A stretch of 64,000 bases of DNA from Comamonas sp. (GTDB taxonomy: Bacteria > Pseudomonadota > Gammaproteobacteria > Burkholderiales > Burkholderiaceae_C): assembly GCA_015478895.1 (NCBI GenBank), contig JADMKK010000020.1, positions 1 to 64,000 of the forward strand, given 5' to 3'. The notes beneath the pieces are model-generated. The model was not told the origin of the DNA, searched no databases, and saw only the letters and a list, made by a program, of their open reading frames with translations. The position numbers and the translations under genes are program-made. Positions 7,360 to 63,681 of this stretch are shown piece by piece; position 1 is the stretch's first letter, and each line of letters opens with the position of its first letter.

Positions 7360-7830
7360 ATGACTGCTGCCCGTGTTTTGATCCAGACCCAAGATTTCGA
7401 TGTTTCCCGCGAACTGGCCCAGCTGCGCCACGCCGATGCGCGTGTGGGCGCGGTGTGCAGCTTTGTGGGTACTGTGCGCGACCGCAATGAAGGCGCCAGC
7501 GTCTCGGCCATGGAGCTGGAACACTACCCCGGCATGACCGAGAAAAGCATTGAAGCCATCATTGATCGTGCCGTCGAGCGCTTTGGCATTTATGGTGCCA
7601 AGGTGATTCACCGTGTCGGCCCGTTGCAGCCTCTGGATCAGATCGTGCTGGTGGCGGTGACGTCCGCGCACCGTGGCATGAGTTTTCAGGCCTGCGAATT
7701 CATCATGGACTATCTGAAGTCCGAAGCACCTTTCTGGAAAAAAGAGCAAACCCCCGAAGGCGCACGCTGGGTGGATGCCCGTGTGAGCGACGAGACAGCC
7801 TTGGCGCGCTGGGAAGGTGCTAGCAATTAA
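7360..7830 (+). CDS. moaE: Molybdopterin synthase catalytic subunit MoaE
   Basis: Large subunit of molybdopterin synthase, which makes the dithiolene with MoaD. The 156-residue protein contains VGAVCSFVGTVRD, MELEHYPGMTE, the active-site region HRVGPLQPLDQIVLVAVTSAHR, and the catalytic lysine segment LKSEAPFWKKE. The ATG at 7360 fits the family N-terminus; upstream in-frame codons lie in sequence antisense to the 84-residue gene. Its separation from moaD by a recombinase-like gene and an opposite-strand pair implies its own promoter, which I could not identify. Confidence 0.95.
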   Translation: MTAARVLIQTQDFDVSRELAQLRHADARVGAVCSFVGTVRDRNEGASVSAMELEHYPGMTEKSIEAIIDRAVERFGIYGAKVIHRVGPLQPLDQIVLVAVTSAHRGMSFQACEFIMDYLKSEAPFWKKEQTPEGARWVDARVSDETALARWEGASN

Positions 7831-7872
7831 ATAGCAGCTTGCCGTTACCAATTAAGCTTTTCAAGCTGCTAT
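7831..7872. repeat. Intergenic inverted repeat, Comamonadaceae type
   Basis: Perfect 11-bp arms ATAGCAGCTTG (7831-7841) and CAAGCTGCTAT (7862-7872) separated by 20 bases, directly after the moaE stop. The cleanest hairpin-forming copy of the interspersed element family. It may protect or end the moaE transcript; there is no U-tract directly after it. Confidence 0.65.
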
Positions 7873-8023
7873 TGTTTTGAAAGCCTTGTTGCTGCATGGC
7901 AGAGTGCTACGTTTTTTGCGTCAGGCATGAGCGACAGCCAAGGCTGGGCTTGGCCGACAGACGGCAGCCTGATCTTGCTGCACGATGGTGCTCATTGCAA
8001 CAGCCCTGACAAGGAGTTTTCTG

Positions 8024-8551
8024 ATGAGCAAGTCCATTGCCGTGCTGGTCACGGATGAGTTTGAAGACAGCGAATACTGGAAGCCAGTCGATACCCTGCG
8101 TTCAGCAGGCTATGCCATCTTCAATATCGAAAAAGAAAAGAACAACGTGGTCAAAGGCAAGAAAGACCAGACTCCGGTAACGATTGATCTGGGAATTGGC
8201 GATGCCAAGGTCGACGACTACGCAGCGCTGCTGATTCCTGGCGGGCACTCGCCCGATGCCTTGCGCGGAGATGACCGTTTCGCGCAGTTCGTTAAGGACT
8301 TCGACGCCACAGGGCGGCCCATTTTCACCATCTGCCACGGGCCGCAATTGCTGATCAGCGCCGGGGTGGTCAAGGAGCGCAAGATGACTTCGGTCAAGAA
8401 CATTGCCGTTGATCTGAAAAATGCCGGTGCGCAGTTCGAGGACAGTGCCGTGGTAATTGATGACAACCGCCTGGTTACCAGCCGCACGCCGGAAGATTTG
8501 CCGCAGTTCAACGAAGCCATGCTGAAGGTGCTGGAGTCGCACCAAAAGTAG
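8024..8551 (+). CDS. PfpI/DJ-1 family type 1 glutamine amidotransferase-like protein
   Basis: 175-residue member of the DJ-1/ThiJ/PfpI superfamily, close to YhbO/PfpI proteins proposed to act as deglycases or stress proteins. The nucleophile elbow is FTICHGPQLL with Cys104-His105; the acidic partner lies in DEFEDSEYW (residues 11-19), and LLIPGGHSPD is at 70-79. ATG at 8024 is chosen because AAGGAG is at 8011-8016; an in-frame ATG at 7985 adds 13 residues without a site. Stand-alone gene followed by a strong terminator. The exact substrate cannot be told from sequence. Confidence 0.88.
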   Translation: MSKSIAVLVTDEFEDSEYWKPVDTLRSAGYAIFNIEKEKNNVVKGKKDQTPVTIDLGIGDAKVDDYAALLIPGGHSPDALRGDDRFAQFVKDFDATGRPIFTICHGPQLLISAGVVKERKMTSVKNIAVDLKNAGAQFEDSAVVIDDNRLVTSRTPEDLPQFNEAMLKVLESHQK

Positions 8552-8570
8552 CAGCTTGCAGCACAAAAAA

Positions 8571-8595
8571 ACGGGCCCGAAAAGGCCCGTTTTTG
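8571..8595. terminator. Bidirectional Rho-independent terminator
   Basis: ACGGGCC, loop CGAAAA, GGCCCGT followed by a T run; an A run precedes the stem, so it can end both the PfpI gene (+) and the yceI gene (-) that converge here. Confidence 0.9.
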
Positions 8596-8612
8596 TTCAG
8601 CGCAATGGCAGA

Positions 8613-9185
8613 TTATTGCTTGACGGCTTCCATTTGCAGCACCAGGCGCACTTCCTTCGGGAAGCCCCAGTCGATGCCGTAGTTCACGCCCCACTGGGTG
8701 CGGTCAATGGTGGCTTCAAAGTCGCCGCCGCACACTTCGGTTTTAAGCATGGGGCTTTCGTAGCAATTGAATTTGTTGGACTGGATGGTGATGGGGTGGG
8801 TCTGGCCGTTCATCGTCAGCTTGCCAGTCACGTGCTTGAGCTTGTCGCCGTCAAACACAAACTTGTCGGAGACAAACTTGGCTTCAGGGTGCTTTTCCGC
8901 GTTCAAGATCTCGGCGCTCTTCAGGTGCTTGTCAAAGCCTGCAGTGCCGGAGTTGATGGAGTTTATGTCCAGCGTCACTTCCACTTTGCCGGTTTTGCCC
9001 GCTTTGTCGAACTGCACCGTGCCGCTTTTCTTGTCAAAACGTGCGCGGTTGGTGGAGGCGCCAAAGTGGTCGATCTCAAACGTCGCAAAAGTGTGTGTGG
9101 GGTCAATCGCGTAAGTAGCAGGGGCGGCTTGGGCGGCGGTGGCAAACAGGCCGGTGGCGGCCAGGGCAAGCAAGGTAGAGCGCAT
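8613..9185 (-). CDS. YceI family periplasmic lipocalin-like protein
   Basis: 190 residues with a signal peptide (MRSTLLALAATGLFATAAQA) and a YceI beta-barrel domain: YAIDPTHTFATFEIDHFGAS, INSINSGTAGFDKHLKS, ILNAEKHPEAKFVS, LTMNGQTHPITI. YceI proteins bind isoprenoid or amphiphilic ligands in the periplasm; the ligand here is unknown. ATG at 9185 has AGGAGAT just upstream. It lies downstream of a second yceI-like gene and a cytochrome b561 gene on the same strand. Confidence 0.92.
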   Translation of the reverse strand: MRSTLLALAATGLFATAAQAAPATYAIDPTHTFATFEIDHFGASTNRARFDKKSGTVQFDKAGKTGKVEVTLDINSINSGTAGFDKHLKSAEILNAEKHPEAKFVSDKFVFDGDKLKHVTGKLTMNGQTHPITIQSNKFNCYESPMLKTEVCGGDFEATIDRTQWGVNYGIDWGFPKEVRLVLQMEAVKQ

Positions 9186-9322
9186 AAAAAATCTCCTGAA
9201 AGTGAAATAGAGAAAGCAGATTGAAAAAAAGATGAGCAGCACGCCCTAGCCATTGCATGCTTTCAGCATTAAAAGCTGTTGAAAACAAGCTACCAAAAGG
9301 GCATAGTGCTACAAAAAATAAA

Positions 9323-9895
9323 TTACAGCTTGCCCACGCCGGTCAACGCCAGCTTGAAATTCACCGTGACGTCATTGGCCACCATGGACGTGTCGGCCCA
9401 GTCGCCATCGCCAATCTTGAAGGGCAAGCGCTGGATCGGCAAGCTGCCCGTGGCCGTGGTGGCATTGCCCGCTTGCGTCAGCTGCACAGGCACCGACACC
9501 TTTTGCGCGCTGCCCTTGATGGTCAATGTGCCATCAACTTGGTACTTGCCATTGCCCAGCGGCTTGACGGCGGTGGAGTCAAACGTAGCCTTGGGAAATT
9601 GGGCAATGTTGAACCAGTCTGCGCTGAACAGGTTGCTGTCCGTCTCTTTGGAGCCCATGGTGGCGCTGTCGGTGTCAATGCTCAGCTGAATCTTGCTGGC
9701 CTCGGGCTTGGCCGTATCAAACTGCACTTGCGCTGCAAACTGCTTGAAGTGGCCTTTGACGGGCACGCCCAGTTGTCTGGCAGTGAATTCAATGCTGCTT
9801 TGTGCCGGTACCAAAGCCTGTTGGGCCATGGCAGCGGTGCCTAGCAAAGCAGCGCTGGCCAAGACGGCGGTGCGCAAGGTGGGGGTGAAAGTCAT
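9323..9895 (-). CDS. YceI family periplasmic protein, second copy
   Basis: 190 residues with a Sec signal (LRTAVLASAALLGTAAMAQQ) and a diverged YceI domain: SIEFTARQLGVPVKGHFKQF, FPKATFDS, TLTIKGSAQKVSVPV. ATG at 9895 is preferred to one at 9910 because AAGGAA sits at the right distance. It follows the cytochrome b561 gene by 18 bp, so the two are probably co-transcribed. It is clearly a paralogue of the downstream copy, but of the Polyisoprenoid-binding YceI-2 type rather than a recent duplicate. Confidence 0.9.
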   Translation of the reverse strand: MTFTPTLRTAVLASAALLGTAAMAQQALVPAQSSIEFTARQLGVPVKGHFKQFAAQVQFDTAKPEASKIQLSIDTDSATMGSKETDSNLFSADWFNIAQFPKATFDSTAVKPLGNGKYQVDGTLTIKGSAQKVSVPVQLTQAGNATTATGSLPIQRLPFKIGDGDWADTSMVANDVTVNFKLALTGVGKL

Positions 9896-21546: not shown

Positions 21547-22110
21547 CTATTCAGTATCGCTCTTTGAGCAATCGGTATCAGTGGTGAGGTGCATGGGGGT
21601 GCAAATGCGCACGCGCCCAGTTTTAGCAATTATGATACGCCGCGTATTTCTGGTCGTAGCACTATCTTTTCGCTGCATCTGAATCGTAGTCTGTGCAGAT
21701 GCGCCATTTTTATCCTTGATGAACCCAGAGCCGTTATAAAACAAATACGCTGGATTATCTTTGGCGGTGCCGGTAGAGTCAATTGCGATATTGCTACTAA
21801 CGGCTTCACTCTCCATTATGAGAATATCGCCGGAATTATATGTTGCGCTTGAATCTACATCCACAAAAGCAATCCAACCAGAATTCCAATTATTATCTTG
21901 ATTTTTTGGCATTAAGAGACCATTCATGTTACGTTTCATCGCTTCGGAGCGTACAGCATAAATAGAAGCAATAAATTCATTAGCAACGCTGGTCAGCTCT
22001 GAACTGCGTCTTTGGTCAATAAAGCTTGGAGCCGCCAATGTGCTTAATAAAGCCAGAAGAGCTAAAGTTACCATTAGCTCAAGCAGCGTAAATCCATTGT
22101 TTTTAGGCAT
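21547..22110 (-). CDS. fimT: GspH/FimT family minor pseudopilin
   Basis: 187 residues. Class III prepilin signal [22 protein letters not shown] with Glu5 of the mature chain, then a typical GspH globular domain and a late Arg-rich strand (NTRRIIIAKTGRVRIC). Minor pilin proposed to prime type IV pilus assembly. Last pilin gene of the operon, 6 bp after pilE. The G+C is low like the rest of the island. Confidence 0.9.
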   Translation of the reverse strand: MPKNNGFTLLELMVTLALLALLSTLAAPSFIDQRRSSELTSVANEFIASIYAVRSEAMKRNMNGLLMPKNQDNNWNSGWIAFVDVDSSATYNSGDILIMESEAVSSNIAIDSTGTAKDNPAYLFYNGSGFIKDKNGASAQTTIQMQRKDSATTRNTRRIIIAKTGRVRICTPMHLTTDTDCSKSDTE

Positions 22111-22116
22111 GGATAT

Positions 22117-22551
22117 TTATTTCCAGCAAACGCTGGGTTTGCTACCAGAACAACTTTTTACACCTGTGCTAGTCAGTGTGATTTCTTCAATAAAAGGGTC
22201 ATTGTATTTGCTAGGTTTTGCGTAAAGCTCTACGCAGTCTTCAATTTTCTGGTTGTTGCAAGCACGCGCCCCAATCAAGAAAGCAGCTGTAAGGCGCGAA
22301 ACTCCTGTAAAGTTCTTAAAAGGTTGGTCAGTAGCAGTTTCTGAGAAAGAGGCATATTTATTATTTTGTGTCATATATCTTTCTTGTTGCTGAATTAATT
22401 CCATTAAGGCAACCCGTCCTTCGGCTCTTTTGGATTTTCTTACATATTCTTGATAAGAAGGATAAGCTATAGAAGCTAAAATTCCGATAATAGCAATGGT
22501 AATCATTAACTCTAAGAGGGTAAAGCCTTGATGTTTTTTACTGGTTAACAT
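22117..22551 (-). CDS. pilE: Type IV minor pilin PilE
   Basis: 144 residues; prepilin cleavage site [25 protein letters not shown] with Glu5, the ComP/PilE-like domain [23 protein letters not shown], and a pair of C-terminal cysteines ([10 protein letters not shown]) forming the D-region disulfide. The start overlaps the end of pilY1 by 14 bp. By position after pilVWXY1 it is the minor pilin PilE rather than the major pilin PilA. Confidence 0.92.
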
Positions 22552-25500
22552 TAAATTTCCTTCTCAGTTCTTGATAATTATGAATCTGGCGCCAGCTAAT
22601 TCTTCCTGTCAGTGAGTAGGCTTCCTGTATTTCATATGGTTCTGTTTTTCCAGTGCTGGATGGGTTGTAAATTCCTGCCCTGTCTGTCCTGATCCGATCA
22701 CCAGTACTGCCCGATGCGCTGTATTTAGAGCTTAAATTTAAGAGAATGGGTGCACCCAGTGCGCCATTAGTTAAGGCTGAAACCGTGCCGATACCTGAAG
22801 CTAATTCAGCAACGTAGCTGCGGCTAGATCCACCACCACAGGCATTGGTAGTTGCAGTAGGTGGCAAAATTGAATTGAAGTAAATATTTTTTCCAAATAA
22901 AACGGCTTGTGTAATTTGCTTTTCCCCACCGGAGCTGCCACTGAGTGGATAGTCAATATACCAGCCAGATTTTTTGTTTACTGGTGTATTTTGAGCATCA
23001 GTAGGTTTGCTCCAGATAAATTTCGCCGCGCTAATCGCATTACCGGAAATGGAGGCGGCTTGCAAACGATCTCTATTTCTTATTCTTGCGGAATCACCAG
23101 TACCGGCAGTGTCTAGAGTACTTTCAGGTAAATCGTAAAGAACATAAAAAGATTCTTTTTTAATGGCGTTGTTTACTAAATTGTCTGATGCTTCTAGATA
23201 TTTTCCAGTGCCAAAAGAAATTATATAGGATTGATTGGGGCCATGAGCAATGCTGGGAACCATGCTAATAGGTTGGATAGGCGCAGTAGTGCTTGACGAG
23301 GTTCTGGCCACAAACAAAGGTTTTGGAGAGCCACTTTTTTTAAAATATGAAAGTTTCGCTAAGTTCCAAGCACTTTCAGAGCTGCTACTAAAATTAGCTT
23401 CTGCCATATCTAGTTTCCACATTTGACCGTGCAAATCACCAAAGTAAATATATTGGATGGAGCCGTCGATATTTGAAGTCGCGTCAAAATTTATAATTCC
23501 GCTTGGAATGGCGGTGCCATTGCTATCTGCAGTTTGATCTGCGAGATTTTTAAAGATAGGAGTTGTTATTTTGAAATAGTTAACTCCGAGTTGCCACGAT
23601 GCAGTTTTTGATTTGCTCAAATCAAGCAGGAATAAAGCAGGCTCCCCTGTCGTGCTGTAATTGTTAATGCCATCATGCATATAATTGTTGATGCCTCCAG
23701 CAACTACAGCAAACCATTTATAAGAAATACTTTTACTTTCTGGAGCACTGGTTCTAAATTTAAAAATTTTAGGTTGTCCTACTACATTGCCAAGGCTGGC
23801 ATCGTCTGCATCAGTAAACTCCCAAAGGACTTTGTCTTTGGAAAACTGCCTGGGGTTGGTAACATCAAGTGCGAAAACTCCTTGGCCTCCAGCGCCAGTG
23901 CCTGAAACCAATACTGTTTTCCAATTGTTGCCTAGTTGCGCTTCTGCTACGGTAGGCGTCGCATCAACATAAGCGGTGTGCCGGCTGGAGTTGTAGTCAG
24001 ATGAAGTTAATCTAGAAAGTTTTGGGCTTAACCAACTTGGAATATAGGCAAATATCTCTTCCATGCTTTCTGCATTGAAGGCATGCAGCATGCCGTCGTT
24101 AGCGCCTACGAAAATAGCTTTCGTTCTATTTTTATTATTTTCATAAAATTCTTTATAGCTTGTATCGCTATAACGTGTCGTAGGGGCCCCTGAGTAAACG
24201 ACTCCTGAATTAACGATGTCTCCTAGACGTGAGGATCGATTTCTAAAAGGATTGCTTTCGTAGTTTCTATGACCGCGGATATATTCGAGACGCTTCTCTC
24301 CTAAGTTGTCAGGGAGGGCTTGGGGAGATTCTATGGGGTCTGCTTGATTTAGAAAAGCCTTTGTACCGTCTTCAAGAGAGTCCCACTTAAATTCGGTAGC
24401 AATAGGCTCTGTTATCTTTGTAGATTTCCCTATAATTATGTTCCTACTATTGAGTGCAGACGTTGATAACGCATCTAACTTATTAGCCGCAGATACTGCG
24501 CTGTCCAAACTGCCCATGATAATTGCATCGGTACTTGTAGAGCTTAAGCTTCGGCGTCTTACATCACCAGACCAATATTCAGGATTAAAATCAGTTTGAT
24601 ATATATAACTATCAGTAGTTGTGAGTTGGCTGCTTGATAGCGCCGGTTTTGCAATAGAAGTGCTTGCCTGGGTAACTGCAATAAAGATATCGTTAAGTGC
24701 TGTCAATACGGCTTGGGCATCACTTGCTAAAAAATAGGTTTTTGCTTCAGTGGGCTGAGCATCTTTATTCCAGCGATTTTGCGCAGAAAAAGGGTTTCCA
24801 CTATCGTCGCTGGAATATGAATAACCACCATATTTTGCTGTTATGAACAACTGTGAGTTCCACCGTGTACTGTCTATATCGCTGGCACTTCCCTCATTAA
24901 CATCTAAAACATAGGTTTTTACCCGAAGGCCTGGTCTCCTTTTGCTAGATTCAGACCATTGAGAACCACGTATATCGTGTGTATTGGCCCAATAGGCTGC
25001 CCCTGCAATGTAGTAAGCAGCTTGACCGGCACCAGTGTCGGCAGTATGTATGTTTTCAAGATTAGTTTTAATATTTTCTGTACGGATGGGAGTTTTTCGA
25101 GAGTTTCCGCTTCCATCCGTATAACTGACTTCAGTTCCTGATTCAAAGCCTCCAATAACTTTGGTCCAGAATTTAAAATCTGGTAAATTGGCAGAATTAT
25201 CAGCACTTCTGGCAAAGTCGTTATTGGATGTCCTGTCATTACCTGGGAGTGACTTGTCCGCGTGGGTGTTTTTGTCGGCAATAGTAAGAATACTATTTCT
25301 TAAGCAAGAATAATTTCCGGAGGCTGAAATACCTGCGAATGGGTCTGTCCAAGTTGTATATACAGGAAAGCCGTCTTTTTTTGTGTCTAAAATCCCGTCT
25401 GCACTTACTCCTGAGTAGGCTTGTGGTGTAGGGCTTAAACCCTGTAAATAGCGCAAGCTTTCATAATAGAGTTCGCCCAGAGGATCATTACTTTTGTACA

Positions 25501-26938
25501 TTCCATAAGTACCTGTACGGCCAAAGGTATTAAGGTAATTAATAACTCCACTTTTTCCATCGGCAGTTTTTCTGGGGTTTATATTAAATACACCAGTGCT
25601 GGTATTCCATTCGAGGTAGGGATTTTGGGTGGTTAAATATTGACCATTTTCATCGTAATTGCGCGGGCCTACATAAGTCATGGGGTTACGCAACACTCCC
25701 CCATAACGCGCCGTCCCACTATCCATCAAATAGCCAAATGCAGCTACACGCAAACGGTCACTATATTTTTGAAGATTTCCGATTGGCTTGTAATTGCCTG
25801 AGGGATAGCGTTGGCACAATTGAGTGCGAGGGTCAGTTAAACTAGAGTTGGTTGATTCGCAAACCCGGGAACGAGTATAGTAAAAGTTATCTGAATTGGT
25901 TGTGAAGTTACCCGTTGCGGTTGTTGCCACATCTTTGGTCAGTTCTGGAACGCTAGAAATTTTTCTTATGTAGCAAGATTTTCCTTGGCCTGAAGCAGGG
26001 TCTCCCAATATAGACCAGTAGCAAGGCATGCTAGTATTTGTATAGAAGCTAATCCATTTGTTGGCAGTGCCAAATAACATTTCTACTGGCTCGTTAATAA
26101 CACAAGTAGAATTTGAGCCGTCAGCAGCGCAAAATTTATATTTTGTTTGATCTAAATTTTTTCCACTATGCGTTTCGAAATTAGTATTTTCAGGGTTAGA
26201 AGGAGTACCTTTATTTTCATAAAAATAGGGTGGGATATCTTGGCACCCTGAACTGCCAGTAGCTAACGAATTGCTCCCGTTCACAAAAAAGTAAATTCTA
26301 TCTAAGCAGTTACTAATGCGTACTTCTTTGTTTGAAGCTACGCTATTTGAACTAAACATGCTATTTGGCAGATATTTTTTGGCAATTACCGCAGGAACTT
26401 TTTTTTGGGGAAAGACGCTGCTGTCATTGAAAAAACTAGTCATTAAGACAGCTCTTTGTAATACAGTTAGAGATTCCGTGTCTATGATTCTGTCGCCGCC
26501 AGTTAAGCCAAGTCTTAAAATGTCAATGGACGAGCTGCTGGCCCAATTCATGAAGTTTCCACTGAAACCATTGCCATTACACTCAAATTTTGTGGTGGAG
26601 GCGGTGGCACCTATGCGCATAAAATAACGCTGTGCTGCATCTGAGTTTTTTGTATAGTTATAACAGCTTTTGCTATCAAAATAACCAGGATATTCAGTAT
26701 TTTCGCTAAAAGAGTTTCGATATTGAGCACCAACTGTTGGGTATTCTACGGACAAGGCTAGCGTTAGAGTGGGCTTGTGTCCAGAACCTTGCGAGTAGAG
26801 AGGGTCGGCTGAAAGATTGACAGGGTGTATGTTTGCATCATTTGGTTTTATAAAACCACTCTGCGCTTGGGTATTACTTTTTGGTGTAAAAAACAATACT
26901 GAAATTATAAAAAAAGAAAATAAATATTTTTTTTGCAT
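22538..26938 (-). CDS. pilY1: PilY1-family pilus tip adhesin/assembly protein
   Basis: 1466 residues with a Sec signal ([19 protein letters not shown]). The N-terminal about 900 residues are variable and Ser/Asn/Tyr-rich; the C-terminal part from about residue 940 is the conserved Neisseria PilC beta-propeller domain ([54 protein letters not shown]). PilY1 sits at the pilus tip with the minor pilins and regulates retraction and adhesion. The calcium loop expected before YFGDLHG (near residue 1150-1165) looks degenerate. 5 bp after pilX; low G+C compared with flanking genes. Confidence 0.93.
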
Positions 26939-26943
26939 TTTCT

Positions 26944-27558
26944 TTATTTCCTGAAAATACTTTGAGTAACTGCATGAATATCATCGCGAGGGCCAAAGCC
27001 CAAGGATGTTATACGATATAAATATTTTTCCTGGCTGGCACTGGCATCTAATCCGGGGGCTGTGTCTATAAGGGCTTCTATAATATAGCGTGGACTTTTT
27101 CTAGGTTTTAATCCCCCTTCTCCGCTGGAGAAAGTGCGGTTTGTAAAGCTCCCAAAAACAACTGCGGGCGAGCTTTCAGAAGTTAGATCTATTGTGAACC
27201 ATAAAGGACCGGCATCGCTGCCTTCGAGTGCGCAAATTCCTTTGTAATTACCTTGGCCTATACATCCAGATGCAGGGAAGTTAATAATGTCGTTGGGATT
27301 GAATATGCTCGTGTTTGATAGGCGCGATGACGTGCCTTTATTACTGATGTCAATATCAAGCTCTGCATCCTGCAGGCCCGCTTCGGCGCTTTGCCAGGCA
27401 ATTTGATAGTCGCGATCGTTGCGTGCCGTGCGCTCCCCCATTAGTGAAATATTAACAGCGCTAATTCCCAGTAGCATAGTAATGGAAAGCAAAATAAGCA
27501 CGATAATCAAGGAAAGGCCCTTTTGCTTATTTATTGATTTGGTTCTTAATAAATTCAT
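26944..27558 (-). CDS. pilX: Minor pilin PilX
   Basis: 204 residues. KGLSLIIVLILLSITMLLGISAVN is a prepilin-like N-terminus lacking Glu5, as is usual for PilX, followed by the QIAWQSAEAGLQDAE motif of the PilX N domain and a divergent globular part. It overlaps the pilW stop (TAATG) and precedes pilY1 by 5 bp. Role: part of the pilus-initiating minor pilin complex that carries PilY1. Confidence 0.9.
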   Translation of the reverse strand: MNLLRTKSINKQKGLSLIIVLILLSITMLLGISAVNISLMGERTARNDRDYQIAWQSAEAGLQDAELDIDISNKGTSSRLSNTSIFNPNDIINFPASGCIGQGNYKGICALEGSDAGPLWFTIDLTSESSPAVVFGSFTNRTFSSGEGGLKPRKSPRYIIEALIDTAPGLDASASQEKYLYRITSLGFGPRDDIHAVTQSIFRK

Positions 27559-58676: not shown

Positions 58677-59060
58677 TCAAGCTTTGGGTGGGCGGTGCAT
58701 CAGGCACACCTTGTTGCCCGATGGGTCACGCAGGTAGGCCAAATACAGCTTCATGCGCTCATCGCCACGCCAGCCGGGCGCATCTTCAATGGCTGTGCCA
58801 CCGGCAGCCAGAGCTGCTTCATAGGCGGCGGTGGCTTGCTCTACCGACTCTGCCGCAAAGCCCAGCGTAAAGCCGTTTGCCGCTGTGGCGGGCTCGCCGT
58901 CGATGGGTGTGGTCACGCTGAAGGTATTGCCCGCATGGCGCCAGAAATAGCGGTGACGGTCTTGAAAGCCCGGCTTGGCACCCAGCGTGCCAAGCAGCGC
59001 GTTGTAGAACTTTACCGAGGCGTCGAGGTCATTGGCGCCGAGCATGATGTGGCTGAACAT
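58677..59060 (-). CDS. VOC family (glyoxalase/bleomycin-resistance-like) protein, copy 1
   Basis: 127 residues with the beta-alpha-beta-beta-beta VOC module repeated twice: FSHIMLGANDLDASVKFYNALLGTLG, then AANGFTLGFAAESVEQATAAYEAALAAGG and LAYLRDPSGNKVCLMHRP. Metal ligands would be His5, a mid-chain residue and Glu/His near the end; not certain. A paralogue lies 438 bp upstream. Substrate unknown. Confidence 0.85.
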   Translation of the reverse strand: MFSHIMLGANDLDASVKFYNALLGTLGAKPGFQDRHRYFWRHAGNTFSVTTPIDGEPATAANGFTLGFAAESVEQATAAYEAALAAGGTAIEDAPGWRGDERMKLYLAYLRDPSGNKVCLMHRPPKA

Positions 59061-59156
59061 GGTGTGCGTGTCTCCTAGTGTTGTTGGTGAGTGTTCCGTG
59101 ACAGATGCTAGAGCAGCACGGTCTGGCGGGCGTCGCGCAGGTGATGGGGTAGTTTG

Positions 59157-59215
59157 AAATTAATAGCTGTCTGCCCTTATGGATATTGGGCTAGAGGCTG
59201 TTTTTGCTTGTAATT
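59157..59215. repeat. Comamonadaceae-type interspersed repeat, left copy
   Basis: AATAGCTGTCTGCCCTTAT then ATTGGGCTAGAGGCTGTTT. It is in inverse orientation to the copy at 59453, and together they flank the 59220-59450 repeat block. Confidence 0.65.
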
Positions 59216-59452
59216 GTTTTTTTGAGGGTGGCTGGTCGGGTGTCGGCCCGACGGCCGAGTAACTTTCTTATGGCGATAAGAAAGTCACCAAAGAAGCGCG
59301 TCTGCCGACGGCTGTCCGGCTGAACTCCCCGGCGCTCCTGCGTCGCTCTGATCAAACAGGCAGCCGGAGATTTGATTTTTTATATTGAAACGCGCGACGC
59401 TTGCGCGCGCGTGGTGCGTTGGCGCTGTGCTGCTAAGGGAATGTTTTTGTGA
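59216..59452. repeat. Hairpin-rich repeat block
   Basis: Contains ACTTTCTTAT, GGCG, ATAAGAAAGT (59262-59285), a perfect ten-base stem followed by TCACCAAAGAAG, then GC-rich palindromes and CGCGCGACGC/GCGCGCGCG. The ACTTTCTT...AAGAAAGT-(T/A)ACC-AAAGAA core is very like a repeated DNA module I have seen scattered in many beta- and gammaproteobacteria. No coding frame. With the flanks it accounts for the 59061-59498 gene-free stretch. Confidence 0.5.
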
Positions 59453-59508
59453 TTTAAACCAAATAAGGGTCTAGCCCTTATGTAGCAATGGTAAGTAGCT
59501 ATGGTTTA
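59453..59508. repeat. Comamonadaceae-type interspersed repeat, right copy
   Basis: AATAAGGGTCTAGCCCTTAT then GCAATGGTAAGTAGCTATGG, the reverse complement arrangement of the left copy at 59157. Confidence 0.65.
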
Positions 59509-59885
59509 TGAATAATGCAGAGCTTGTGCCCGTCCGGGTCACGCACATAAGCCAGATAGCGGCGGGGGCCACCGCCTTCGCGCCAGCCGGGGGGGTCTTC
59601 GATTTGGGTGCCGCCGTGGGCAAGGGCTGCGGCTACCGCTTGGTCAACCTGCTCGGGCGATGCTGCAGCCAAGCCCAGCGTAAAACCGTTGTAGTGCGTG
59701 GCAGGCTCACCATCTCTTGGCATGGCAATCAGCAGGCGAAAGCCGTTGTGACTCCACACAAAGCGGTCAAAACCATTGACATGAATGTGCGTGCTAGGCG
59801 CGGTGCCAAGTGCGCCCAGTACAGCGTCGTAGAAGCGGCGGCTGGCTTCGGGGTGGTTGGTGCCTAGGAGGAGATGGGTGAGCAC
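59499..59885 (-). CDS. VOC family protein, copy 2
   Basis: 128 residues, paralogue of the gene at 58677: LTHLLLGTNHPEASRRFYDAVLGALG, HYNGFTLGLAAASPEQVDQAVAAALAHGG, YLAYVRDPDGHKLCIIHKP. Starts at GTG 59885 with no ribosome site; just 7 bases before it lies the stop of the AT-rich gene, so its original upstream sequence may have been replaced and it may now depend on coupling. Confidence 0.82.
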   Translation of the reverse strand: MLTHLLLGTNHPEASRRFYDAVLGALGTAPSTHIHVNGFDRFVWSHNGFRLLIAMPRDGEPATHYNGFTLGLAAASPEQVDQAVAAALAHGGTQIEDPPGWREGGGPRRYLAYVRDPDGHKLCIIHKP

Positions 59886-59892
59886 AAGAAAA

Positions 59893-60858
59893 TTAAAAAT
59901 CTATATTGAATTGAAAATCTTCATCTATTGGGGTGCTCGATTTTAATATTAATGTTGGTCTTTTATCCATTTTTAAGGAGGTCTTCATATTCCTATTAAC
60001 GTGGCAGTCGACAATGCATTTTTTGAATAAAGAGTCCTTAAATCTAGAGACGTCGCCGGTTTCCGGATAACAGTTTAATATATGGCCTGAATATTTGAAG
60101 CCTAAAGAATTGGATGATTGATTGCCTCTAGTAAGAGTTCCCTCAAGTCTATACCGATGATTATGTTGAAGGTGAGGTAGTAGAATATCTTCTTCAGATT
60201 CATTAACTATTGGAATAAAAAATGACTTTTCTTTTTCATCAATTGTTTCTTTATTTATTTTATCGTCATTTAATACGGCAATTTCAAATAATCTTTCTTT
60301 TTCAATTGGATTTACTATTTTGTGTACAATAGCTGGTGGCATTTTCTTATACCAGTCCAAAAATTCATTGTCTATTTCAATTTTTGTTCCATTAGGGAGT
60401 GTAATTAGCGTGTAAACGATACCATTCCTGGTTAATTTTTTTCCCTTTTCTATTTCTTCATTGGAAACTCCAAGTTTTTTGAGTTTTATAAAATCTACAA
60501 ATGCATTCATGGATTTTGTGAGGATTTTTTTAAAGCTTACATCTTTGAAATCATTTTCTGCTATTTTTTCACCAGCTTTTTTTAAATATGATGCAGAAAA
60601 AATTCCACCACTTGTTAAAAGTAATGATGAAAATGGGTTGTCGACGATGGTAGCAATCCATGAACCTTCTTTTATTTTTACGGGAATCTCATATGGATTA
60701 TCGATAAAATAAGAATGTTGTTTGGAGTTGAAAAATTTAATAATATCGTTAAAGCCCGATAGTGCGTTAGCCGCTGCTGCTAGATCAATAACACCATCTT
60801 TGGTTCTTTCTCCATAATATTTAATATATGCAAAATTTTCTTTTGTTAGATTTTTCAT
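59893..60858 (-). CDS. AT-rich hypothetical protein coupled to the NERD helicase
   Basis: 321 residues, rich in Lys/Ile/Asn/Phe; the gene is about one-third G+C against about 60% around it, a clear sign of transfer. N-terminal pattern KYYGERTKDGVIDLAAAANA, SGFNDIIKFF and VKIKEGSWIA recalls a fold in uncharacterised prokaryotic proteins (ID-x-aliphatic helix then EGSW strand), but I cannot name the family. A hydrophobic patch (FSSLLLTSGGIFSASYL, residues about 76-92) may be membrane-interacting. The C-terminal part (about 225-321) is a beta-rich domain with HLQHNHRYRLEGTL and several cysteines. ATG is one base after the helicase TAA (TAATATG). Confidence 0.8.
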   Translation of the reverse strand: MKNLTKENFAYIKYYGERTKDGVIDLAAAANALSGFNDIIKFFNSKQHSYFIDNPYEIPVKIKEGSWIATIVDNPFSSLLLTSGGIFSASYLKKAGEKIAENDFKDVSFKKILTKSMNAFVDFIKLKKLGVSNEEIEKGKKLTRNGIVYTLITLPNGTKIEIDNEFLDWYKKMPPAIVHKIVNPIEKERLFEIAVLNDDKINKETIDEKEKSFFIPIVNESEEDILLPHLQHNHRYRLEGTLTRGNQSSNSLGFKYSGHILNCYPETGDVSRFKDSLFKKCIVDCHVNRNMKTSLKMDKRPTLILKSSTPIDEDFQFNIDF

Positions 60859-60859
60859 A

Positions 60860-62686
60860 TTAAATTGACATTAAGAGATTTATTGATCTAGTCGCCGCCA
60901 CATAAGCCAATTTGGATTCCATTTCCAAATCCTCTTGGTTCATCTTCTCTTTTGGCTCCGAAGTTAATACCGCCACCACCGGCCATTCCAGCCCTTTGCT
61001 GGCATGCATGGTCATCACTTTGATGGTGTTGTCTTGCGGCTTAAAGTCGCCGCTGCCTTTGCGCACTTTGTGCGGCATGCCTTTGCGGGCCAAGGCGCGG
61101 CTGCAGATGTCCATGCCGTCCCAGTCCCGGCACAGCACGGCCATCTCGCCCCAGGCGTGGCCTTGGGCGTGCTGCTCGGCTAATAGCTCTGCAATCTTGG
61201 CTGCGCGTTCGGGCAGGGTGGGCAGGTTGATGACGATGGGCTCTGGCCCTTCGCGCCCGCAGCCCATGGGGGCGAGCAGGGGGATGCCGTCTTCGTCCTT
61301 GGCGTCTTCTGCTTGGAGCATGCTGCCCGCCACTTGGTTGGCCAGTTGCAGAATCTGCCGCGTGTTGCGGTAGTTAATTTTGAGGATGGTGGTGCGGCCC
61401 ATGGCTTGGATGCCCACGCTCTTCAAACTAAAGCCCATCTTGCCGCTGCGGCGGTAGATGCTTTGCGCATCGTCATACAGCAGGAGCAGGCTGTTGGTGT
61501 TAGGGCAGATCATTTGGGTGATGAGCTTGAGCCACTCGGGCGCAAAGTCATGCCCCTCGTCGATCAGGATGGCGTGGTACTGGCCTGCGGGGATGTGGCC
61601 TTTGTCCACGCTCTCGATCAGGCAGCGCACGTATTCATCCATCTTCGCGCCCACCTCCCAGTTGGCGGCGTAGGCGGGCAGTTGGTGGTAGGCCTTGAGC
61701 TGGGCATACACCCATTTGTGAAAGTGGCGCACGTGCACGCGCTCGCTCAGGCCTTTGTGCTCGATGTGCGCGGCCAGTTTGACGGCCAGCGGCTCGTTGT
61801 AGCAAAGCACCAAGATCGGTTTGCTGCCGGGGCCTTGGGTTTGCGCCAGATGCTCGGCGCGGTAGCCAAGGATCATGGTTTTGCCAGAGCCTGCCACGCC
61901 GTGGATAACGCGGTGGCCGTCGCCCAGGCTGCGGGCCAGTTGCTCTTGCTGCAAGTCCATCACGCGCATGATGTCGGGCAGGCGTTCTTCGGCAGCGTTT
62001 TCTGCGGCGGCTTGGGCGTTGTCGTCGGCAAACAGGTTGTGCTGCTCGGGCACGCGCACTTCGGGGAAGAGAATCCAGCGGATGCGGTCAAGCTGGGGCA
62101 GGGTGATGGCGCTATGACGGCCAAATTGGTGTGGAAACATGTTCCACAGCCGTTCCTGAAAGGCTTCAGGTTCGACGTTTTCAAACATTTCGTCTTGGCA
62201 GATGGCCAGCCTTGAAGGGATCGCGCCATCCAGACCTGCTGCGTCGAACTGCGCGCGAGTAATGCGCGTTAAGACTACGCCATAGCCCCAAGGGAAGATG
62301 GGCTTGCCTTTGTGAGGCCCGTCAATATGTTGCAGCTGTGGGTCTTGCCCCAAGGCGTTGATGACTTGGATAGCGCAGTGGCGGGCTTGGGTGAGCGGGT
62401 TGTTCACCGTTTTGGGCTGGCCCGTTGAGGTATCGAGAATCTCGAAGCTATCTCGGCTGGCGTATCGGATGGTGTGGGGGTGCCAGTCCTTGGTCTCCAA
62501 AATTAGCGCGCCGCGGTGCGGGTGCAGCACGACAAAGTCTGGGTGCGTGTGCTTGGGGCCAATGGGCACGTCGTACCAGAGCAGGTAGTCGTCCTCCAGC
62601 TTTTGCTCTAAACGTTCGGATAAGCGCTTTTCACCCGTTGTCATTCGGTGCAGGCACGTCCCCCGTGCCGGTATTTGCGTTGCCAT
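60860..62686 (-). CDS. NERD-domain nuclease fused to UvrD-type superfamily 1 helicase
   Basis: 608 residues from ATG 62686 (a TTG at 62746 would add 20). N-terminal NERD domain, residues about 15-75: GEKRLSERLEQKL, Asp50 in HPDFVV, Glu64-x-Lys66 in LILETKDW, a PD-(D/E)xK-like nuclease core. SF1 motifs: I GVAGSGKT (Lys269), II LIDEGHDF (Asp376), III YDDAQSIY (404-411), IV NYRNTRQI (438), V MTMHASKGLEW (558-568), VI AYVAATRS (594-601). The chain ends soon after motif VI. Host-like G+C except the last codons. Likely DNA-acting; the pair with the AT-rich gene suggests an immunity system. Confidence 0.9.
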   Translation of the reverse strand: MATQIPARGTCLHRMTTGEKRLSERLEQKLEDDYLLWYDVPIGPKHTHPDFVVLHPHRGALILETKDWHPHTIRYASRDSFEILDTSTGQPKTVNNPLTQARHCAIQVINALGQDPQLQHIDGPHKGKPIFPWGYGVVLTRITRAQFDAAGLDGAIPSRLAICQDEMFENVEPEAFQERLWNMFPHQFGRHSAITLPQLDRIRWILFPEVRVPEQHNLFADDNAQAAAENAAEERLPDIMRVMDLQQEQLARSLGDGHRVIHGVAGSGKTMILGYRAEHLAQTQGPGSKPILVLCYNEPLAVKLAAHIEHKGLSERVHVRHFHKWVYAQLKAYHQLPAYAANWEVGAKMDEYVRCLIESVDKGHIPAGQYHAILIDEGHDFAPEWLKLITQMICPNTNSLLLLYDDAQSIYRRSGKMGFSLKSVGIQAMGRTTILKINYRNTRQILQLANQVAGSMLQAEDAKDEDGIPLLAPMGCGREGPEPIVINLPTLPERAAKIAELLAEQHAQGHAWGEMAVLCRDWDGMDICSRALARKGMPHKVRKGSGDFKPQDNTIKVMTMHASKGLEWPVVAVLTSEPKEKMNQEDLEMESKLAYVAATRSINLLMSI

Positions 62687-63024: not shown

Positions 63025-63681
63025 ATGTCTGCACCCTACAAACCCATGTCTTTGCCCATCGCCCAAGTGCTTGATCCGCGCCTGTCGCAGGTGCTGGAGT
63101 ACTGGCTGGGCGCAGAGCTGCCCTCCAACGAGAGCGCGCTGGCGCGCAAGGCGTTGTGGTTTACCAAATCCGAGGAGATGGATGAAGAGATTCGCCACCT
63201 CTTTGGCGGGCTGCTGCAAGAGGCTTTGTTGGGCAAATTGGATGCGGAGGCGATGGAGTCGCCGCTGGGTTTACTGGCGGTGTTGATCGTGCTCGATCAG
63301 TTCACGCGCAATGCCTACCGGGGCACGCCCAAGAGTTTTGCGGGTGACAAGCGGGCGCTGGAGTTGGCGCTCAAGGGCATTGATCGGGGCTGGGACGTGG
63401 AGGACACCATTCCTCCCGTCGCGCGCATTTTTCTGTACCTGCCGCTGGAGCATGCAGAAGATATGGAAATGCAGAACAACAGTGTGGTGGCGTTTGAGCA
63501 GCTGCACCAAGAGTCAGAGCCTGAGTTGCAGGATTTTTTTGCGGGCACGCTGGATTACGCGCACAAGCACCTGGATGTGATTGAGCAGTTTGGGCGCTTT
63601 CCCCACCGCAATGCCATTTTGGGACGCGAGAGCACGCCTGCAGAAAAAGCCTATTTGAGCCAGCCGGGCGCTGGTTTTTAG
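63025..63681 (+). CDS. DUF924 family protein
   Basis: 218 residues. VLEYWLGAELP, KALWFTKSEEMDEEIR, LIVLDQFTRNAYRGTPKSFAGD, FLYLPLEHAEDMEMQ and EQFGRFPHRNAILGRESTPAE are all family hallmarks; all-helical, TPR-like fold expected. Biochemical role unknown. ATG 63025 follows GAAGGAAGAACC. Confidence 0.9.
   Translation: MSAPYKPMSLPIAQVLDPRLSQVLEYWLGAELPSNESALARKALWFTKSEEMDEEIRHLFGGLLQEALLGKLDAEAMESPLGLLAVLIVLDQFTRNAYRGTPKSFAGDKRALELALKGIDRGWDVEDTIPPVARIFLYLPLEHAEDMEMQNNSVVAFEQLHQESEPELQDFFAGTLDYAHKHLDVIEQFGRFPHRNAILGRESTPAEKAYLSQPGAGF

Follow-up and report, generated by a model that had tools for sequence, protein, structure and literature searches.

The window, i.e. the whole stretch of 64,000 nucleotides of Comamonas sp. 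DNA analysed here, carries a gene for a NERD-UvrD helicase-nuclease, P0001, followed closely by an AT-rich gene, P0002. The locus probably combines a fixed helicase-nuclease gene with a downstream module that can be exchanged, in what would be a putative defence locus. As judged from sequence comparisons, this module would consist of the last 7 to 11 codons of the helicase together with one or two AT-rich genes of the same strand, P0002 being the module of the window's genome (G000). The evidence comes from a slot of distinctive composition behind the helicase, a breakpoint just past motif VI, tails linked to cargos, empty sites, and a site where only tail and cargo are left. The P0001-P0002 pair is best read as one case of a plug-in arrangement, and not as a fixed two-gene system. 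The features concerned are the following.

60860..62686, minus strand: NERD-UvrD helicase gene, P0001, 608 aa, the putative fixed part (ORF, Pfam and PADLOC matches)
62348..62638, minus strand: NERD (PD-(D/E)xK-like) domain, residues 17-113 (Pfam PF08378, E 2.4e-11; Asp50, Glu64 and Lys66 conserved)
60872..61951, minus strand: UvrD-type helicase core, about residues 246-605 (Pfam UvrD-helicase and UvrD_C)
60860..60886, minus strand: putative exchanged helicase tail SINLLMSI, last 8 codons and stop, past motif VI, AT-rich (breakpoint comparison, tail lengths)
59893..60858, minus strand: P0002, AT-rich cargo gene, 321 aa (ORF; phrog_32975, E 3.2e-47; weak distant matches to PDC-S42 and LAPAL)
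59929..60156, minus strand: candidate OB-like barrel, C-terminal in P0002, about residues 235-310 (AlphaFold2 model, weak Foldseek matches)
63031..63681, plus strand: upstream flank of the site, a gene presumed to be DUF924-like (same position in G050 and G034; weaker match in G036)
59499..59885, minus strand: downstream flank of the site, a gene we take to be glyoxalase-like (VOC) (directly after the helicase in G050, after the cargo in G036)

The helicase gene and its neighbour in the window

P0001 was confirmed as an open reading frame in which Pfam recognised the NERD domain and both UvrD domains (N-terminal, E 4.7e-11; C-terminal, E 8.8e-19). Its residues 1-604 matched positions 1-538 of the 559 of PADLOC model C3a187, 'NERD+UvrD' (E 1.1e-145). 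Walker A Lys269 and Thr270, Walker B Asp376 and Glu377, and NERD Glu64 and Lys66 were invariant in the 24 helicases of the genus, and Asp50 in 23 of them; the Walker and NERD catalytic residues of P0001 thus appear intact. The protein ends 8 residues past motif VI, which is shorter than homologues outside its clade, and AT-rich composition starts already within the last ~40 bp of the gene. Helicase stop and P0002 start form the junction TAA-T-ATG, with a one-base gap on the same strand, and GC content is 0.59 in the helicase gene versus 0.31 in P0002. A sequence-only reading of this DNA had described the NERD-helicase fusion, the gap and the foreign composition of the 321-residue partner, correctly in all three cases. 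Viral contigs, scanned for close relatives of the helicase, had no match.

Two tandem genes, which we take to be glyoxalase-like and which are ~50% identical, lie beside the cargo (58677-59885, minus strand). Within positions 21801-27200, the window has two further AT-rich patches, at ~21.8-23.8 kb and ~25.8-27.2 kb (600 bp windows, GC below 40%).

The HMM and structure searches suggested by the earlier reading gave the helicase a clear family, C3a187, and P0002 a top match to phrog_32975, a family without assigned function, plus weak OB-type matches. LAPAL scored 18.9 bits against P0002, below its curated cut-off of 60, and PDC-S42 is a PADLOC family without a given cut-off. PDC-S42 and LAPAL each matched 13 of 23 P0002 relatives at E up to 0.01 (best 5.9e-7 and 1.5e-5); with a score below cut-off and weak matches among the relatives, any relation is distant only. 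The GajA-type AAA/TOPRIM domain was absent from P0002 in Pfam and PADLOC searches at E up to 1. With the AlphaFold2 model (mean pLDDT 78.9, pTM 0.60, built on 23 sequences), Foldseek returned one PDB match at E <0.001, the remainder being weak OB-fold-type matches; a further fold search yielded three matches to phage proteins at E <0.001, all with poor superposition, and a profile search of PDB sequences returned nothing. The model suggests that the C-terminus of P0002 probably forms an OB-like barrel. As the barrel comes from weak matches, it is a guess that P0002 may bind nucleic acid.

Searched with P0002, phage records (E 1e-3) and, in two scans, viral contigs gave nothing; plasmid records gave one match. 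A relative on a Vibrio megaplasmid (L022:11983-13657, plus strand) has no helicase beside it; the small gene after it presumably resembles a phospholipase-D-type nuclease. PADLOC scanning of 63 out of the 179 ORFs predicted around P0002 relatives gave scattered hits, some being probably housekeeping genes.

The earlier reading had made P0002 a dedicated sensor or regulator of the helicase. The one-base gap and the common strand fit such a two-gene defence system, which we nevertheless hold to be highly improbable and largely refuted. The helicase was present in 29 of the 100 genomes searched, in 24 of the 53 genomes of the genus and in 17 of the 369 of the class (own genome included each time), and P0002 in 1 of the 100, the window's own, and in 3 of the 369, own included. 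Among 26 loci with P0002 relatives (23 from a genome-contig scan, plus L022, L024 and L025), none had a helicase homologue (E 1e-5) in the flanks examined, which for some loci were as short as 1 to 2 kb. P0002 relatives therefore exist without a P0001-type helicase, and sister helicases have other genes, or none, in its place. On these counts P0002 was rejected as a conserved partner: the neighbourhood survey did not find its co-occurrence with the helicase repeated, but it found other AT-rich genes in the same position. The possibility that the helicase is a core housekeeping gene was rejected as well, as 24 of 53 in the genus and 17 of 369 in the class make it accessory.

The downstream slot and the breakpoint in the helicase gene

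All 24 helicase loci of the genus were oriented and their genes mapped by a simple script, which also picks spurious ORFs. In 12 of the 24 genomes, one or two AT-rich co-directional genes start between -4 and +39 bp from the helicase stop. A fixed composition test (GC below 40% in the next 600 bp) was positive for 11 of 24 downstream regions, 0 of 24 upstream regions and 3 of 425 other tiles (Fisher p 2.5e-13, a figure that overstates certainty because the loci are related and the tiles adjoin). G002 fails this test because of an insertion in its cargo: the OLD-like gene is interrupted right past its start by a gene which, from its motif, we take to be transposase-like. The coupling seen in the window is not accidental, albeit not with P0002 as a fixed partner, for this slot is filled in 12 of 24 genomes. 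A single chance insertion was rejected on the filled slots and on the downstream-upstream difference; that the partner occurs only here is true of P0002, that it came by chance insertion is not.

The 12 cargo-bearing genomes hold ten cargo sets:

G000 (the window's genome): P0002
G001: radical SAM protein
G002 and G003: OLD-like AAA protein
G013 and G047: a protein of 199 or 206 aa, and one of 208 aa
G016: 220 aa protein
G017: AAA protein, in two pieces
G036: NsnB-like ATPase and 157 aa protein
G038: AriA-like ATPase and DUF4435 protein, the PARIS layout
G044: proteins of 277 and 142 aa
G052: 401 aa protein

Three of the ten sets match anti-phage families (OLD-like, AriA-like with DUF4435, and NsnB-like), and seven, that of P0002 included, are without clear defence assignment. 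The PARIS layout of G038 rests on AriA models at E 4.7e-33 and on DUF4435 at E 4.3e-6, with 27.1 bits for a cut-off of 27. The 208 aa protein of G013 matches a transglycosylase domain. In an all-against-all comparison, cargos were homologous within both repeated sets, and the ATPases of G036 and G038 shared one match of 49 residues; one Pfam ATPase family is common to three sets (G003, G036 and G038). In G038 (L139, oriented 7810-9613), the helicase is split over two frames near residue 490 and the PARIS-like cargo genes are open.

To locate the breakpoint, 12 helicase pairs were compared, nine with different downstream content and three sharing a tail. In the nine pairs, identity is high in the helicase body and drops in the last 20-40 bp, just past the codons of motif VI; over the last 20 bp it is 0.35-0.65, the least sharp case being G000-G050 with 0.65. 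In the three tail-sharing pairs, identity holds at 0.90-0.95. Their tails read AIHRVLYL (G002) and AIHRVVYL (G003), ATGLAISA (G013 and G047), and ATYKAIQV (G016 and G022); without a cargo gene of its own, G022 retains ~60 bp of similarity to G016 past the stop. As similarity breaks past motif VI, each cargo brings along the last 7-11 residues of the helicase, and the tail SINLLMSI of P0001 (60860..60886) is taken to belong to the module of P0002.

A tree was then made of the helicase bodies, cut at motif VI. It rejects the grouping of G002 with G003 (AU p 4.7e-4) and of G016 with G022 (AU p 8.3e-6), for groups that were set by shared tails, the tree having been seen before the test. G013 and G047 do group by their helicase bodies and for this reason say nothing on exchange, so that out of three tail-sharing pairs, exchange rests on two.

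Such an exchange of tail and cargo as a unit, together with the tight spacing and common direction in 12 of 12 genomes, would also fit an integrated system, in which the helicase-nuclease would serve all cargos as sensor or processor, and each cargo-specific tail would dock the matching partner or regulate it. It would amount to a modular immune operon, with a common helicase-nuclease core, a replaceable last beta strand, and a module made of tail adaptor and effector, the arm being changed by recombination. We regard both wordings as rather unlikely. The cargo types are very unlike one another (radical SAM protein, transglycosylase, ATPases), P0002 relatives do without the helicase, and the tails may merely complete the last beta strand. 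Moreover, one cargo is a PARIS-like pair; such a pair is expected to act alone, a point in favour of independent cargos rather than one machine.

Empty, scarred and outside sites

Cargo-bearing helicases occupy several sites. At site A, the helicase lies just downstream of c5, presumably an oxidoreductase-like gene, in nine genomes, which carry six cargo types (none in G022). Downstream of the unit, c16 and/or c19 are found in 6 of the 9, and other genes (c20-c23) in G047, G003 and G038. The c5 gene is present in 33 of 53 genomes, and 13 c5 regions without adjoining helicase were compared, eight further helicase-less c5 genomes being outside this set. In six regions (G021, G019, G035, G030, G028 and G051), c16 or c19 comes next after c5, and there is no helicase and no AT-rich DNA; the remaining seven are without the c16/c19 flank and likewise have no AT-rich DNA. 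The absence of both parts from six empty sites speaks for the integrated system.

The site of the window (site B) holds P0002 in G000. G050 lacks a cargo here, the glyoxalase-like gene beginning 20 bp past the helicase stop; G036 has the NsnB-like set, and its upstream flank is weaker (38%). In G034 the helicase frame continues into further coding sequence, which we take to resemble a type I methylase; as this genome is 75% complete, the read-through may be an assembly fault.

G029 was counted as helicase-less. It retains helicase residues 575-607, ending ATALIINQYARH; the beginning of an AT-rich gene of 122 aa overlaps with this end, and a second AT-rich gene follows (L110:1761-2232, minus strand). 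These genes are an eleventh cargo, and from the sequence we read G029 as the scar of a module left after the helicase body was lost. A cargo kept without helicase body argues against the integrated system. G026 has another helicase remnant, with a long tail and no AT-rich DNA behind it.

Of eight genomes tested, G050 and G036 have no match to a partly self-complementary intergenic repeat of ~607 bp (L054:9862-10468), and the other six have 3 to 24 matches each, overlapping or partial ones included. Copies stand on either side of the helicase-cargo unit in G017 and G044, and partly so in other genomes. Among the empty sites, G021, G019 and G028 have one copy, full or shortened, G035 has pieces, and G030 none. 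Beside the helicase of the window, G050 and G036, there is no repeat copy.

An ordinary chromosomal hotspot, i.e. sites that gather foreign DNA with the helicase as one frequent visitor, would account for this repeat around the unit in G017 and G044 and for the accessory nature of the helicase. It would also account for helicase-less G010, where an unrelated 691 aa gene lies between the flanks of the window's site, with no helicase remnant. We nevertheless think it improbable: AT-rich genes are co-directional and downstream in 12 of 12 genomes and upstream in 0 of 24, cargo-bearing helicases are found at several sites (G001 and G052 being elsewhere), and the breakpoint lies within the helicase gene.

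The tail past motif VI measures 7-11 residues in 19 of 20 short-tail genomes (that of G034 is not measurable), and 8 of the 20 short-tail helicases have no adjoining AT-rich cargo. G045, G006, G031 and G014, the four deeper members of the genus, have tails of 23-24 residues, with no cargo directly behind the helicase. Among 29 outside loci, tails were 21-37 residues long in the 18 measured by script and similarly long by eye in the others, except for fragment L156. Downstream GC had a minimum of 0.45 in 18 loci of the class and order, and was at most 0.40 in three of 11 plasmid and E. coli records: L124, with no listed gene for 900 bp, L126, with a GC equal to that of its helicase, and L160, with 0.40. 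Some outside helicases do have a co-directional neighbour: in two E. coli chromosomes it is a small gene lying 65 bp downstream, in Pantoea a type VI secretion gene. This means that, as far as sampled, tail loss and cargo slot coincide, and the pattern is confined to one clade of one genus; a slot restricted to the clade that lost the longer tail is a further point for the integrated system.

In E. coli, a near match to the helicase, whole or part, was found in 1036 of 5426 genomes, covering at least 80% of its length in 605; the neighbourhoods of three chromosomes and three plasmids were inspected. In 16 of 40 listed E. coli records (H47-H62), many of them O157:H7, the match is the first 43% of the helicase with an IS66 transposase annotated under it, and these copies are apparently interrupted.

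The distribution of the helicase is patchy and partly plasmid-borne, and type III CRISPR, viperin and Zorya genes lie near it in three records. Given its domains, this distribution and these neighbours, the helicase probably processes foreign DNA. In the plug-in arrangement that we favour, homologous recombination would enter at the conserved codons of motif VI and leave in downstream DNA, in some genomes perhaps at the multi-copy repeat of ~600 bp. The helicase would process or degrade invading DNA, and the cargos, expressed from its operon, would mostly be independent second defence genes profiting from the position. P0002 would be one such second gene, possibly a nucleic-acid binding one.

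Relation to known systems and meaning

The family C3a187, which P0001 matches over its full length, is a single-protein family and is silent on the downstream slot. Names of this type presumably originate in surveys of type III CRISPR accessory genes. In a figure legend of PMC10910872, NERD and UvrD appear as putative auxiliary genes of CRISPR. Gabija also has a UvrD-type helicase, and the OLD-like AAA/TOPRIM gene adjoining the helicase in G002 and G003 resembles the GajA-GajB layout; unlike Gabija, P0001 has a NERD domain, and its partner in the window is not GajA. GajB models matched P0001 partially (best E 1.7e-18), far more weakly than C3a187 in PADLOC. Nhi-like proteins, for which a table of PMC10952713 gives a NERD domain, share this domain with P0001; they form a single-protein system, and the passages on them in that source mention no exchangeable neighbour. 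No Nhi model was among the best 25 of 40 PADLOC matches of P0001. The PADLOC model RTasNERD-Hel (RT-associated NERD helicase) matched it partly (E 1.1e-18).

Polymorphic toxins exchange their C-terminal tips. They resemble our locus in a conserved GC-richer body, an exchange point near the 3' end and an AT-rich variable part, but here this part consists of 7-11 residues and separate downstream genes, with no fused toxin domain. Core-gene defence hotspots, such as those of Pseudomonas aeruginosa (PMC10250203), have in common with our locus different defence genes at a fixed place; here, however, the place is anchored by an accessory helicase gene that exchanges its own last codons. Both kinds, the defence hotspot and the exchanged toxin tip, are known. 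No description of a helicase with its last strand exchanged alongside unrelated downstream genes was found in the portion of the open-access literature covered, subscription papers being mostly outside its scope, nor in the passages of PMC10952713, PMC10910872, PMC12458937, PMC7864180 and PMC10853773.

If our reading is true, the codons past motif VI of the helicase would mark a loading place for defence-type genes. Because 7 of the 10 cargo sets are without clear assignment, reading the DNA behind motif VI in many strains would then offer an inexpensive way to look for undescribed defence genes. It would also make it testable whether a gene caught downstream of a conserved defence gene cooperates with it, or only rides its promoter.
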